A stretch of 64,000 nucleotides of DNA from Candidatus Poseidoniales archaeon. Its GTDB lineage: Archaea; Thermoplasmatota; Poseidoniia; Poseidoniales; Thalassarchaeaceae. The stretch is taken from contig DUAE01000032.1 of NCBI GenBank assembly GCA_012960975.1, forward strand, positions 1 to 64,000, given 5' to 3'. Below the pieces are notes generated by a model. It ran no database searches, was not told where the DNA came from, and was given only the letters and a program-made list of their open reading frames with translations. This document shows, one piece after another, positions 4,576 to 12,547 of this stretch (positions within the stretch are counted from its first letter, which is position 1; every line of letters starts with the position of its first letter). The position numbers were made by a program, and so were the translations under genes.

Positions 4576-5466
4576 TTACAGATTATTCTCACAAGTATTT
4601 CCATTATTATCTGAATTAGTTCCGTCTGGGCAGATTGTATTGTACCACTGAACACCAGTCAGGTCGGCACCAGTCAGGTTGGCACCAGTCAGGTCGGCAA
4701 AACCCAGGCTGGCATAAATCAGGGCGGCATTACTCAGGTCGGCATTATGCAGGTCGACATAGCCCAGGTTGGCATAAATCAGGTTGGCATTACTCAGGTT
4801 TGCATTACCCAGGGCGGCTTCATACAGGTTGGCATAATATAGGTCGGCATTACTCAGGTCGGCATAATACAGGTTGGCTTCATACAGGGTGGCAAATCGC
4901 AGAGAGGCACCATTCAGGTCGGCATAAACCAGGTCGGCATTACTCAGGTCGGCATTACTCAGGTTGGCACCAGTCAGATCGGCAAAACTCAGGTCGGCGA
5001 AACTCAGGTCCATATATGCCCAGTTAACTGTATGATTTACCCAGTTAATTTCATTCATCAAATCTGTTGTTGCAGTAGTTAAATCAGAACTTATGTTGTT
5101 GATTTGATATTGCATTTGAAGGAACATCATATAATACATTTCTATCACATTATCAACTGCATCTAATTCTTCTTCCATACCAGAGATGTTGCTTAGTAAA
5201 ATTGCAATAGTTGCATTGAGGTTTTCCAGTTCAGCTTCTAGTTCAGCAATGCGTGATTCGTCAGCATCCATGGCATCAGTCCCATCAGCACCTTCAACTC
5301 CATCAGGACCCGTTTCACCCTGTATTCCCTGCGCCCCAGGAGGTCCTTGTTCACCAGTCTCTCCTTGTGGGCCAGATATTCCTTCAGCCCCATCTGTTCC
5401 AGTACATCCCGCAAGAGCGGATGTTAACATTAGCAATACAATAATCATCGGTTTTAGTTGATTCAT
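4576..5466 (-). CDS. Lipoprotein with collagen-like, coiled-coil and pentapeptide-repeat regions
   Basis: The start at 5466 is chosen because it directly opens a lipoprotein signal ending in ALAGC; an upstream ATG at 5490 would add eight residues. The mature protein has four regions. First is a collagen-like Gly-X-Y stretch of about 15 triplets (GPQGETGEQGPPGAQG and similar). Next come an acidic heptad-rich coiled coil and a second hydrophobic/amphipathic segment. About 22 pentapeptide repeats of the A(D/N)L(S/Y)(N/Y) type follow and should form a right-handed beta helix. The end is a short Cys-containing tail (ICPDGTNSDNNGNTCENN). It is probably an elongated surface stalk or adhesin. Confidence 0.8.
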   Translation of the reverse strand: MNQLKPMIIVLLMLTSALAGCTGTDGAEGISGPQGETGEQGPPGAQGIQGETGPDGVEGADGTDAMDADESRIAELEAELENLNATIAILLSNISGMEEELDAVDNVIEMYYMMFLQMQYQINNISSDLTTATTDLMNEINWVNHTVNWAYMDLSFADLSFADLTGANLSNADLSNADLVYADLNGASLRFATLYEANLYYADLSNADLYYANLYEAALGNANLSNANLIYANLGYVDLHNADLSNAALIYASLGFADLTGANLTGADLTGVQWYNTICPDGTNSDNNGNTCENNL

Positions 5467-5516
5467 GTCCGTGGTCAATGGCCTAAGCATTTAGTAATTT
5501 TACTAACCATATCAAC

Positions 5517-8487: not shown

Positions 8488-8691
8488 ATGATGCTTCGCC
8501 AGAGGCTTGGAATTGCATTGATTATTATTTTCTTGCCAATTAACGGACCACTCTGGCGAATGCTTGCTGAAATCGCTGGTTTTCCGTTAAACATCGGCGA
8601 AGTTCAATTTTTCATTCTCTCGATTATTCTTTTTATCCTAGGCGGAATTATGACCTTCACTCCAAAGCTAAAAAACCCCTTTCAAGAATAG
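8488..8691 (+). CDS. Small two-helix membrane protein, hypothetical
   Basis: The 67-residue product has two hydrophobic helices (about 8-22 and 40-58) separated by a short loop, with a basic tail. Nothing identifies a family. It begins just after the tRNA on the opposite strand, and its end overlaps the convergent amidohydrolase gene by ten bases. Typical hydrophobic spacing and a good start support it as a gene. Confidence 0.5.
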   Translation: MMLRQRLGIALIIIFLPINGPLWRMLAEIAGFPLNIGEVQFFILSIILFILGGIMTFTPKLKNPFQE

Positions 8692-9569
8692 AGTTTGGTT
8701 GGCCAATTTGAATGAATATCCATCATTATTTGTGAGACCTCAGATTCGGTTTTTCCAAATTCAAGGAGGGCTCGACAAAGTTCCTGAGTTCTTTTTGGAA
8801 TTGTTTTGGGTCCGAGAACTGCTCCTGGGCGACGAGGATCATCAAGAAAATCTGTCTCCATACCCCAAGGCGAAGACGATTCATCAATCGAGGAGACCAA
8901 GGATTCGATACATCCCTTTCCAACACTTACAGTGCAGGCAAGTCCATTGGTGAATTGAGCACTTACGTCAGCAGGAGCATAATGACGAATTGTTCGATTT
9001 AGGGGCATACCTGCCCTTCCACAAATCTCAGCTAATTCCTGATATGTAGTCGAGCCATTATCTTCAACATGAAGTTGAACACTCGCACCAACCTTAGCAG
9101 CGCGACTCAAAACCTCGACGAGTAATTCGTTCGCAGCGTCCCAAATTTCTTCTGAAACTGGATAATGTGGCCGGCCGACCTCACCTAAGCAAACACAATC
9201 ACCACTCGAATAGAGTTCTAGCGCCAAATCTACCGCTTGCAAATGTAAATCGCTTGCTTTCGTCATACCTATTGTCAAAACTTGATGAGCCCATGCGACG
9301 GGATGTGGCCCTAATATCACCGATACTTGAATGTCAAACTTTGCTCGAACCTCATCCGCCATCACCAATGTATCAAGATAAACGGCTCGATATTCATCGA
9401 TATCAATTGGCAAATTCTCAAAATTTGGTTTGTGAACCAAGTTGATTGCTGTACCCCCAACTCGAACGAATTCTTCGACCGCATCAAGAAATCTATTTGA
9501 TCGATCCAGATGCATATGTTGGTCGAGTATCGGCCCAATCCAACGACCGTCTTTCAACATGGGCCTCAC
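8682..9569 (-). CDS. TatD-like metal-dependent hydrolase (archaeal COG1831 type)
   Basis: The 295-residue TIM-barrel amidohydrolase shows N-terminal metal motif 'DQHMHLDRS', a central 'GEVGRPHYPV', then 'VQLHVED', 'RHYAP' and a late Asp in 'METDFLDDPRRPG'. These are the five metal-ligand regions of the TatD/urease superfamily, in the spacing of the archaeal COG1831 group. The substrate is unknown; nuclease or phosphoesterase activity is possible. It is the last gene of a three-gene operon and its start overlaps the TBP-like gene by four bases (ATGA), which implies translational coupling. Confidence 0.8.
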   Translation of the reverse strand: MRPMLKDGRWIGPILDQHMHLDRSNRFLDAVEEFVRVGGTAINLVHKPNFENLPIDIDEYRAVYLDTLVMADEVRAKFDIQVSVILGPHPVAWAHQVLTIGMTKASDLHLQAVDLALELYSSGDCVCLGEVGRPHYPVSEEIWDAANELLVEVLSRAAKVGASVQLHVEDNGSTTYQELAEICGRAGMPLNRTIRHYAPADVSAQFTNGLACTVSVGKGCIESLVSSIDESSSPWGMETDFLDDPRRPGAVLGPKTIPKRTQELCRALLEFGKTESEVSQIMMDIHSNWPTKLYS

Positions 9570-10099
9570 GCCAGTGCGCCTTCTAATTCGAATCGTTTAA
9601 CCCAGTGCCGAATAGCCATCTCTGCTATTCGCTTCGAAGATTGCCCGAGTACGATTCCATGTCCATTATTGAACAAAATAATTTGCGCGCCGTGGCGACT
9701 AGCATCAATCCGTAGTGCATTGATATCGTAGTCTATATTAGCATCAGGAAATCTATCTGCCACTAATTCCAACAAGACCGCTCTGCCGATACTAAATTGC
9801 ACTATCATATCGCCCGAATCCATCATTAGCCATTCATTGGTCATCCCGAGTTTATACAATAATTCTTCAATTGCTAACCGGGCGACCTCACCTCTTGAAA
9901 TTCCGTGAACAAGCACGGTTCCTTCTGGTTCAATAACAAAAGTTGCGTGGGGTTCTTCGTGAGAGATTACAACGTATTCTCCACTCTTCGAGCCGCCGCC
10001 CAAAGTTACAGCCTCATCGTGGTCAATAGGTTCTGAAGGCGTGAAGCGAAAGGTCTGTGTTTCAACTTCAACACTTATCCTCTCATCAGCCAATTTCAT
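9566..10099 (-). CDS. TBP-fold protein, possible divergent TATA-binding-protein paralogue
   Basis: The start at 10099 is chosen because its ATG overlaps the upstream stop as ATGA; a longer frame would overlap that gene by 70 bases. The 177-residue product equals the usual length of archaeal TBP. Each half ends in the strand-strand-helix pattern of a TBP repeat. Half one has 'ATFVIEPEGTVLVHGIS' plus helix 'GEVARLAIEELLYKL'. Half two has 'AQIILFNNGHGIVLGQS' plus 'KRIAEMAIRHWVKRF', close to TBP's LIFxSGKxVxTGAKS. The DNA-contacting phenylalanines are not obvious, so DNA binding may be altered or lost. It could instead be another TBP-fold ligand-binding protein. Confidence 0.5.
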   Translation of the reverse strand: MKLADERISVEVETQTFRFTPSEPIDHDEAVTLGGGSKSGEYVVISHEEPHATFVIEPEGTVLVHGISRGEVARLAIEELLYKLGMTNEWLMMDSGDMIVQFSIGRAVLLELVADRFPDANIDYDINALRIDASRHGAQIILFNNGHGIVLGQSSKRIAEMAIRHWVKRFELEGALA

Positions 10100-10893
10100 T
10101 CCTCCGTGACGACCAATTCCACTTCCGGCCAAGACAATATTGCCTCCGACATCGAGGGCAGCCAAGCTTGATGGATGGGTACCAGTAGAGTTCTGTCCTG
10201 TGCTCCGCCGTCATCAACCCTACTATCGCACAGGTCTCTAAGTGCACCGCGTAATCTAGAGGCAAAACGGAGATTTCGCTCACTATTGAGCTCATCTGAA
10301 TTCCAGCGCTCCTCTTCTAGCCACCATGTTACTGAGGATGCTGAAGCTGCACCCAATTCGACATCAACATAATTGTTCTTTTCAATTTTTGATGGTGCTG
10401 CTCGACGATTGTTTTTCCAACGCTTCGATGTCCGAAGCGTTGCCAATAAATTGCCTAATCGAACCTGTTCATCTGCGCTCCTAGTGAGATAATCTTCCCA
10501 TATTTCGTCATCAAGATTTGGTTCAATTGAATAAATCGGCATCCCACCACGGGCATTTTCTGCATGTTTTATCAATCGAATTTGCTCTGGATCAGGAATA
10601 CTTGGACCATCGATTTCCAATTCTACTAAATCCGATACGAGTCGACCAAAAGCAGTTCCTGAAGTCAAGGCAGAATCTCGATGAATTCCGGGGCTATCTC
10701 TTTCTTGTTCTTCCTCGATTCGCCACTCGGCTAAATCATTGGATGATGCTAGTAGAGCCAAGCCATCCCAGGATTCTCGTGGACGAAGAGCGTTCGGCAT
10801 ACGTACACAAGGCAAATGTGGCCATAATACGATTTTCCCTCCATCTGGATCTGAAAAAATCACTGAGTCCCAAGTCAGGTGAGGTATGTCCAT
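10096..10893 (-). CDS. Conserved-looking hypothetical protein in TBP-like operon
   Basis: The 265-residue soluble acidic protein is not recognised. It has no signal peptide or membrane segment. Visible features are a Trp-rich N-terminal half (LTWDSVIF, VLWPHLPCVRMP, ESWDGLALLASS), a charged helical middle with a basic patch (TSKRWKNNRRAAPSK), and a hydrophobic C-terminal 'TLLVPIHQAWLPSM'. It is the first gene of the operon with the TBP-like protein and the TatD-like hydrolase, each joined by ATGA overlaps. A shared process for the three is therefore likely, but its nature is unknown. Confidence 0.6.
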   Translation of the reverse strand: MDIPHLTWDSVIFSDPDGGKIVLWPHLPCVRMPNALRPRESWDGLALLASSNDLAEWRIEEEQERDSPGIHRDSALTSGTAFGRLVSDLVELEIDGPSIPDPEQIRLIKHAENARGGMPIYSIEPNLDDEIWEDYLTRSADEQVRLGNLLATLRTSKRWKNNRRAAPSKIEKNNYVDVELGAASASSVTWWLEEERWNSDELNSERNLRFASRLRGALRDLCDSRVDDGGAQDRTLLVPIHQAWLPSMSEAILSWPEVELVVTEE

Positions 10894-10980
10894 GACACAC
10901 CCAATCGCTCCCTTCGGTTCAATTCAACGGTCGAAGAATCGTTAATTTCATTCATTCTCAATCTGATGCATTGAAGGCAG

Positions 10981-11454
10981 ATGCCTTCCCGAGACCGTTT
11001 GAGGAACATGGAACAACCCCACTCTCTCGAGCCAGTCATACAATTGAACGAAGTATTTCCTAGCCACACAAATGCACGAGATACTCTCTTCGGTGGGCGA
11101 TTAATGTCGATTATGGATACTGCTGCCGGCATGGCAGCGTCGAAATATGCACACCAGCAATTTGTTACTATTTCGGTCGACTCATTGAAATTCCGCCGAC
11201 CAGCATATCAAGGAGATGTAATTAGAACGACCTCGAAAGTGGTTTGGACCTCCCCACACACTGCAGGTGTCCACGTGATTTCTTGCAGGTTATCTAGAAG
11301 CGAATGGGTTGGTGAAGAAATCTGCTCTGGGTTCTTTTTTATGGTTGCAGTCGATAAAAATATGAAGCCAAGTAAAATTCCACAATTCACTCCTATGAAT
11401 GATGAAGAGCAAAATATGTGGAATGCAGCTCAAAAAGCTCGCGAAATGATGTGA
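10981..11454 (+). CDS. Acyl-CoA thioesterase, YciA/BFIT hotdog family
   Basis: The 157-residue protein has the single-hotdog thioesterase pattern: 'VFPSHTNARDTLFGGRLMSIMD' with the catalytic Asp, the central helix 'AAGMAASKYA', then 'FVTISVDSLKFRRPAYQGDVI'. It hydrolyses acyl-CoA to free acid and CoA in the cytoplasm. An alternative start at 11008 (MEQPHS) would fit the family equally well. The gene is divergent from the TBP-like operon and followed by a pseudo-GTPase gene on the same strand. It may serve the CoA-ester catabolism genes found later in the window, although it is not linked to them. Confidence 0.88.
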   Translation: MPSRDRLRNMEQPHSLEPVIQLNEVFPSHTNARDTLFGGRLMSIMDTAAGMAASKYAHQQFVTISVDSLKFRRPAYQGDVIRTTSKVVWTSPHTAGVHVISCRLSRSEWVGEEICSGFFFMVAVDKNMKPSKIPQFTPMNDEEQNMWNAAQKAREMM

Positions 11455-11557: not shown

Positions 11558-12547
11558 ATGCCCGTACTCAATATCGCTTTCTCTGGTACTGAAGAATTGG
11601 CTCGCAGTATTGCGAAACGTAGCGATGTTAGAGATATCGAATCATATGTTTACAAAGAGGTCAGAGGTGGCACCACTCAAATCATCTCTTTACTCAGACC
11701 ACTGAAACACCCTGAGCGATTACGACCTTTGCTCTCAGTTCTGAATGTTGCAAAGGTCGGCCTTGTTGAAGTAACAAAAGTCGATGCTTCACTCGGAGAA
11801 ATTCTCGTTGCATTCGGATGTGCGGGAATCGAGGTTGGGCATGTGATTATCAATCCTGAACATGGAGGTTGGGTCGATCCTGACCAAGTGAAAATTATTC
11901 TATCTCAAGCAGGACTTGGAAATTGGAAACTACATGAATCAGTACCGGATGAACATGATTTACGAGAGCAATTATTCGCTCATTTAGACGAGGTTGAAAA
12001 TGATTCAGAGGGAGATTTAATTATTCCAGTCGACCAACATTTCAATGTCAAAGGAGTCGGTTTGGTCGCCATTGGATACGTTCAATCCGGAACCGTCAAC
12101 AAGCATGAAACGGTTCAGGTTTTGCCGGCTACTGAGAATGGCATCGTCCGTTCCTTACAGGTAATGGACGATGATGTCGACGCTGCAGTTTCTGGAGATC
12201 GTGTTGGTCTTGCTTTACGCAATTTGAGAGAGGAGGCACTTCATCGAGGATGTATGATTATTCATCTCGATACCAATGCTTTGGAAAAGCACAAAATTTC
12301 AAATTTCAAGTTGATCAAAGCACCTTTCCAAAATCGAGACCTTCACGAGGAAGATATCGTTCACGCGGCCGTTGATATGCAATTCACAGTCGGCCGCGTA
12401 AAAACAGTGAACGGAGAAGACATCACAGTAGAATGGGAGAGCCCTCTATGGCTGCGTTCTAAATCGAGTCCACCGGTTATCATCACCCAATTAGATGCAG
12501 CTCCAATGAGGATTATTGGTGTCGCTAAATCGATTCATTCGGCGTAA
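11558..12547 (+). CDS. EF1A/SelB-like protein lacking a functional GTPase domain
   Basis: The 329-residue protein begins 'LNIAFSGTEELARSIAKR', which sits where translational GTPases have NIAxxGHVDHGKST, but the P-loop GxxxxGK(S/T) is missing. The G2-G4 motifs (DxxG, NKxD) are also absent. From about residue 155 it shows an EF-Tu domain II-like barrel ('VDQHFNVKGVGLVAIGYVQSGTVNKHETV' compares to domain II) followed by a domain III-like barrel. It resembles the GTP-binding-deficient aSelB-like paralogues of archaea. A role in tRNA or ribosome binding without GTP hydrolysis is inferred only from the fold. Confidence 0.7.
   Translation: MPVLNIAFSGTEELARSIAKRSDVRDIESYVYKEVRGGTTQIISLLRPLKHPERLRPLLSVLNVAKVGLVEVTKVDASLGEILVAFGCAGIEVGHVIINPEHGGWVDPDQVKIILSQAGLGNWKLHESVPDEHDLREQLFAHLDEVENDSEGDLIIPVDQHFNVKGVGLVAIGYVQSGTVNKHETVQVLPATENGIVRSLQVMDDDVDAAVSGDRVGLALRNLREEALHRGCMIIHLDTNALEKHKISNFKLIKAPFQNRDLHEEDIVHAAVDMQFTVGRVKTVNGEDITVEWESPLWLRSKSSPPVIITQLDAAPMRIIGVAKSIHSA

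Follow-up and report, generated by a model that had tools for sequence, protein, structure and literature searches.

The window, the whole stretch of DNA that was analysed, comprises 64,000 nucleotides of a contig from a Candidatus Poseidoniales archaeon. Its minus strand carries three tandemly overlapping genes, and these, their junctions and the positions in the middle gene referred to below are as follows.

10096..10893, minus strand: gene 1, 265 amino acids, ATG start
9566..10099, minus strand: gene 2, encoding TBPL, a 177-residue TBP paralogue predicted to be without a TATA-binding surface, ATG start
8682..9569, minus strand: gene 3, encoding a predicted TatD-family metal-dependent hydrolase with a complete active site, 295 amino acids, GTG start
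10096..10099, minus strand: ATGA overlap of the gene 1 stop and the gene 2 start, read from the sequence
9566..9569, minus strand: GTGA overlap of the gene 2 stop and the gene 3 start, read from the sequence
10894..10980, no strand assigned: divergent intergenic region of 87 bp, presumed to be the promoter of the trio from its position between gene 1 and the thioesterase gene
9905..9907, minus strand: His65 of TBPL, which stands where TBP has the DNA-contacting Thr124; His in 34 of 34 orthologues
9929..9931, minus strand: Glu57 of TBPL, at the Phe116 (N.L5.1) position of TBP, Asp or Glu in 34 of 34 orthologues

An earlier, sequence-only reading of this DNA had each gene overlapping the next as ATGA. 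This is correct for genes 1 and 2 (10096–10099), but the junction of genes 2 and 3 (9566–9569) is GTGA, and in close relatives the TatD gene starts with ATG, 4 nt past the stop of the TBP-like gene. A thioesterase gene, which starts at 10981 on the plus strand, diverges from the trio across the 87 bp, and a small convergent ORF meets the trio on its downstream side.

Conservation of the trio

The middle gene was found in 58 of 60 relatives, including all 24 near-complete genomes; of the two relatives without it, one is 52% complete, and in the other a contig terminates right at the first gene. The gene order is constant in the loci of the order that were read, none of which splits the trio, and the intergenic gaps are mostly −4 to +10 nt (at locus L046 the TatD gene was masked by the longest-ORF filter and was shown by tblastn). 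The partners of the TBP-like gene had been described as not being transcription proteins, and a hydrolase and a protein without transcription homology are indeed its constant companions across the order. When ten neighbourhoods were compared, only the trio genes were common to both families of the order. Family f2 and genus g8 of family f1 have other flanking genes in common, and in genus g1 the flanks are wholly different; the trio has therefore moved or been kept as a block. A chance grouping is ruled out because the trio is conserved in the members of the order examined. The dN/dS values for the closest species pair are 0.13, 0.09 and 0.10 for the trio genes and 0.05 for canonical TBP, and the trio is under purifying selection. 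A defence or phage origin was considered and rejected, since the three genes have no PADLOC or PHROGs match and the unit occurs throughout the sampled order; no copy of gene 1 was found on viral contigs.

Throughout family f2 (loci L046–L065) the trio lies between a gene for a very large protein (about 1500 amino acids) and a ketosynthase-like gene.

TBP homology and DNA contacts of the middle protein

Taken alone, TBPL of the window matches the Pfam TBP profile (PF00352) at 23.6 bits (cut-off 22.9). TBP is matched by all 34 orthologues tested (best 6e-12), and at E≤0.1 the orthologue profile retrieves 35 sequences from the PDB, of which almost all are named TBP. The predicted structure of 9566–10099 (AF2 pLDDT 94.6) is a two-lobed TBP saddle whose best 44 PDB matches are all TBP chains (TM 0.75–0.87), followed by a sharp drop. 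A strand and a helix close each lobe of the model (E62–67/H70–83 and E147–153/H156–172), in agreement with the sequence-only reading of a TBP-sized product with both halves ending in a strand-helix pattern. Archaeal TBPs (PDB 1pcz, 1ais and 1mp9) superpose over the full length with TM 0.85–0.87, and sequence homology spans both lobes, although the identity is just 12–18%. Together, the sequence matches and the modelled fold identify TBPL as a real TBP homologue.

The contact positions of TBP were located in TBPL by aligning it with archaeal TBPs and are numbered as in yeast TBP. In all 34 orthologues F99 is deleted together with its stirrup, the F116 position is Asp or Glu, the F190 position is Leu, Ile or Val and the T124 position is His. 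T215 is kept in 7 of the 34 and N69 in 21, and N159, R105, R196 and K127 are lost. The only DNA-inserting aromatic to survive is at the F207 position (C.L5.1, second lobe), which is F or W in every orthologue. The second stirrup is shortened, and of the residues that contact TFB, E186 is kept in 12 of 34 while the E188 position is acidic in 32 of 34. In place of the first-lobe DNA face there are conserved polar residues, R18, D/E57 and H65. TBPL thus differs from archaeal TBPs in being encoded alongside a hydrolase and in lacking three of the four DNA-inserting phenylalanines, Thr124, in most orthologues Thr215, and the basic contact residues; in canonical Poseidoniales TBPs the contacts are intact (30 of 30). 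In the published nomenclature F116 is N.L5.1 and the TFB-contact glutamates are C.L3.2 and C.L3.4, and the L5.1 aromatic is a universal nucleic-acid contact of TBP lobes, a position reported to touch the duplex both in TBP and in RNase H3 (PMC7221094). Judged by these positions, TATA binding has been lost by TBPL.

A canonical TBP is encoded on another contig of the same genome, with its lobes matched at 90 and 82 bits, and a separate canonical TBP is present in 58 of the 60 relatives. When the order's two families are compared, this protein is 84–87% identical, against about 27–33% for TBPL. The suggestion that the middle protein might be a divergent general factor is therefore rejected, given a separate, strongly conserved canonical TBP and the loss of the TATA-contacting residues.

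In a combined alignment the canonical TBP at L001 1480–2193 (genome G000, contig C28) has an insert of ~50 residues inside its second lobe.

The TatD and gene 1 partners

The gene 3 product matches the TatD profile PF01026 at 5e-20, and the profile is also matched by all 25 members of its family that were compared, so that the proposed pairing of a TBP fold with a metal hydrolase is upheld on both sides. H18, H20, H89, E130, H167, H196, E238 and D240 are invariant in all 25 and correspond, by motif order rather than by structure, to H6, H8, H63, E92, H128, H153, E202 and D204 of S. aureus TatD (SAV0491), a Mg-dependent DNase and RNase for which these eight active-site residues are listed (PMC7201278). 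With all eight shared, the active site of the trio TatD appears intact and the protein is a predicted hydrolase. It differs from SAV0491 in belonging to an archaeal subfamily with the extra invariant motifs GPHP and DDxxRPGAVLGP, and a search of PDB sequences gave no relative at E≤0.001.

Gene 1 has no match in Pfam, NCBIfam, PHROGs or the PDB by sequence. Its model (AF2 pLDDT 93.5) gave, as the top three Foldseek matches, chains of Tetrahymena complex IV annotated as TraB family protein (probability 0.84–0.92, E 0.03–0.09, TM 0.46–0.49), and a TraB-family subunit is noted in the paper on the Tetrahymena respiratory complex. The best fold match to the TraB/PrgY/GumN family (PF01963; Tetrahymena 7w5z_E) has the same order of strands and helices. 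An hhalign comparison of the gene 1 profile with real TraB was weak (E 0.013, compared with 0.47 for an unrelated control), and the sole alignment falls on the C-terminal ERD...GAGH region. Real TraB proteins carry both the GxxH and the GAGH histidine motifs; the gene 1 alignment has no invariant His and neither GxxH (GTAH) nor GAGH. No gene 1 member is matched by PF01963 at E<1, and a PF01963 search of genome G000 recovered the real TraB gene, encoded elsewhere in the genome, and missed gene 1. Assignment of gene 1 to a recognised family is therefore rejected. Tentatively, gene 1 probably encodes an inactivated TraB fold rather than a member of that family. Gene 1 was found in all 64 sampled genomes of the order and in none from the rest of the sampled phylum Thermoplasmatota, and it is a new protein family that is specific to the Poseidoniales within that sample.

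Proposed origin and possible role of the trio

The phylum was searched with TatD and TBP profiles and the loci were read (about eight of the 83 genomes being judged from coordinates only). In 19 of these 83 genomes from outside the order, representing 11 families, a TBP gene immediately precedes this TatD gene in the same orientation, at a distance of no more than about 100 bp, and in four further genomes the two genes lie within 1.5 kb. Outside the Poseidoniales the TatD-linked TBP is often canonical. In families such as f6 and f23 no other TBP was found in the genome, and therefore it is the general factor that stands paired with TatD there. Genomes of family f11 have separate canonical TBPs plus a degenerate TatD-linked copy, in which F116 and F190 are replaced by Leu and T124 by His (5 of 5). 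A tree joins TBPL with these f11 proteins (95/82), on long branches for which the program warns of a possible artefact, and the TBPL profile also scores better against them than against canonical TBPs (E 7e-11 versus 3e-8); descent from one degenerate ancestor and convergence are both candidate accounts. No particular canonical TBP was picked out by the trees as the parent of TBPL. The tbp–tatD pairing is older than the sequence of the window by itself could show.

Two variants of this arrangement were also seen. In genome G129 of family f28 a 97-residue single-lobe TBP ORF lies directly upstream of TatD (L229:1244–1534), and loci L184, L185 and L186 (families f16 and f34) have tandem TBP genes, one canonical and one divergent.

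We propose, with a confidence that falls a little short of even, that an old tbp–tatD pair gave rise to the trio when its TBP left promoters and took on an adaptor role for the TatD enzyme, so that the operon now provides TatD with two dedicated non-catalytic partners. The ancestor of TBPL would most likely have been a TBP encoded directly upstream of tatD. In the Poseidoniales lineage the protein has, by its residues, lost the promoter-binding face, and a second tbp has kept the general-factor role. Both non-catalytic proteins would associate with TatD, choosing its substrate or presenting it to the enzyme. The second lobe of TBPL, with its C.L5.1 aromatic kept, may hold duplex nucleic acid as does the single TBP-like lobe of RNase H3; the remodelled first lobe may be a protein-docking face, and gene 1 presumably provides a structural or regulatory subunit. 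That the pair was kept after its TBP lost promoter binding argues that this TBP serves TatD beyond transcription, although co-regulation alone might account for it. The arrangement suggests a three-protein complex rather than a transcription factor, possibly a DNA- or RNA-processing module. What counts against an adaptor is the acidity of the three proteins in this genome (pI 4.7–5.1), which is atypical of strong nucleic-acid binders, although the phylum's canonical TBPs are acidic too (mean pI 5.4). A bolder version, which we consider unlikely, is that a two-lobed TBP was turned from promoter recognition to picking substrates for a TatD nuclease, as a subunit of its own. It would have built on a physical association of TBP and TatD that is ancient and persists with genuine TBP in other Thermoplasmatota. 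If true, the general transcription factor of archaea would itself be partnered by a nuclease.

TatD-superfamily enzymes, and those of the TatD fold generally, are diverse and include non-nucleases, which leaves room for a TBPL that serves TatD purely as a protein scaffold or as a regulatory subunit, making no nucleic-acid contact, with a small-molecule or tRNA-linked TatD substrate. The acidity of the trio proteins and the polar R18, D/E57 and H65 on the former DNA face of the first lobe fit such a role; the universally retained F/W at C.L5.1, a general nucleic-acid contact of TBP lobes (PMC7221094), and the complete set of catalytic residues of a TatD with demonstrated DNase and RNase activity do not, and we give it a minority chance. 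A specialised transcription factor is a rather poor prospect in our estimate, whether it recognised an alternative promoter element or acted as a decoy titrating TFB or canonical TBP, and was encoded with TatD by chance. Several TBP paralogues contribute to promoter choice in many archaea (review PMC7289017), and the acidic E188 position and second-lobe aromatic would suit such a protein. Yet its orthologues uniformly lack F99, F116 and F190, and T124, R105, R196 and K127 are lost as well, E186 is kept in a third of cases or so (12 of 34), it evolves far faster than canonical TBP, and its partners throughout the order are a hydrolase and a protein without transcription homology. That the genes merely persist as one transcription unit by evolutionary inertia, their proteins working separately, we regard as very improbable. 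Other families do have canonical TBPs, surely functional ones, next to tatD, but the trio stays intact in genus g1 although all its other neighbours there are different, no locus read in the order splits it, and degenerate TBPs stand beside TatD in at least two lineages.

A parallel to the adaptor that we favour is the N-terminal TBP-like domain of RNase H3, with the RnlA toxin, in which a TBP-fold lobe likewise works with a nuclease; in RNase H3 the conserved L5.1 aromatic contacts duplex nucleic acid (PMC4132731, PMC7221094). There, however, a single lobe is fused to the nuclease, whereas TBPL is two-lobed and separate, beside an unrelated TIM-barrel hydrolase. Haloarchaeal TBPs and vertebrate TBPL1/TLP are likewise duplicated TBPs beside a canonical copy, but those paralogues act in transcription, and vertebrate TBPL1 has Trp at N.L5.1 (PMC7221094) where Poseidoniales TBPL has Asp or Glu.

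In archaea and eukaryotes few proteins are as conserved as TBP, and to our knowledge the paralogues described to date all remain in transcription. An order-wide paralogue that lacks the DNA contacts and is bound to a hydrolase by synteny would be a case of TBP departing from transcription with its two-lobed form kept, and the adjacency of tbp and tatD over 11 families makes it testable whether archaeal TBP has a TatD-family partner. A literature search, thin on subscription papers and so weak as evidence, gave no paper joining TBP, TatD and archaea and none on TBP with Poseidoniales. The TBP fold and the TatD hydrolase are known; the literature searched describes neither their combination nor a degenerate TBP with two lobes, nor the third, order-specific protein.

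Elsewhere in the window, the plus-strand gene at 11558–12547 matches EF-Tu domain 2 (PF03144), and its N-terminal part matches no GTPase family; it may be a relative of translation factors whose G domain is degenerate. The minus-strand gene at 4576–5490 encodes a protein in which a collagen-like GxxG stretch precedes pentapeptide-like repeats (ADLSNADL...).
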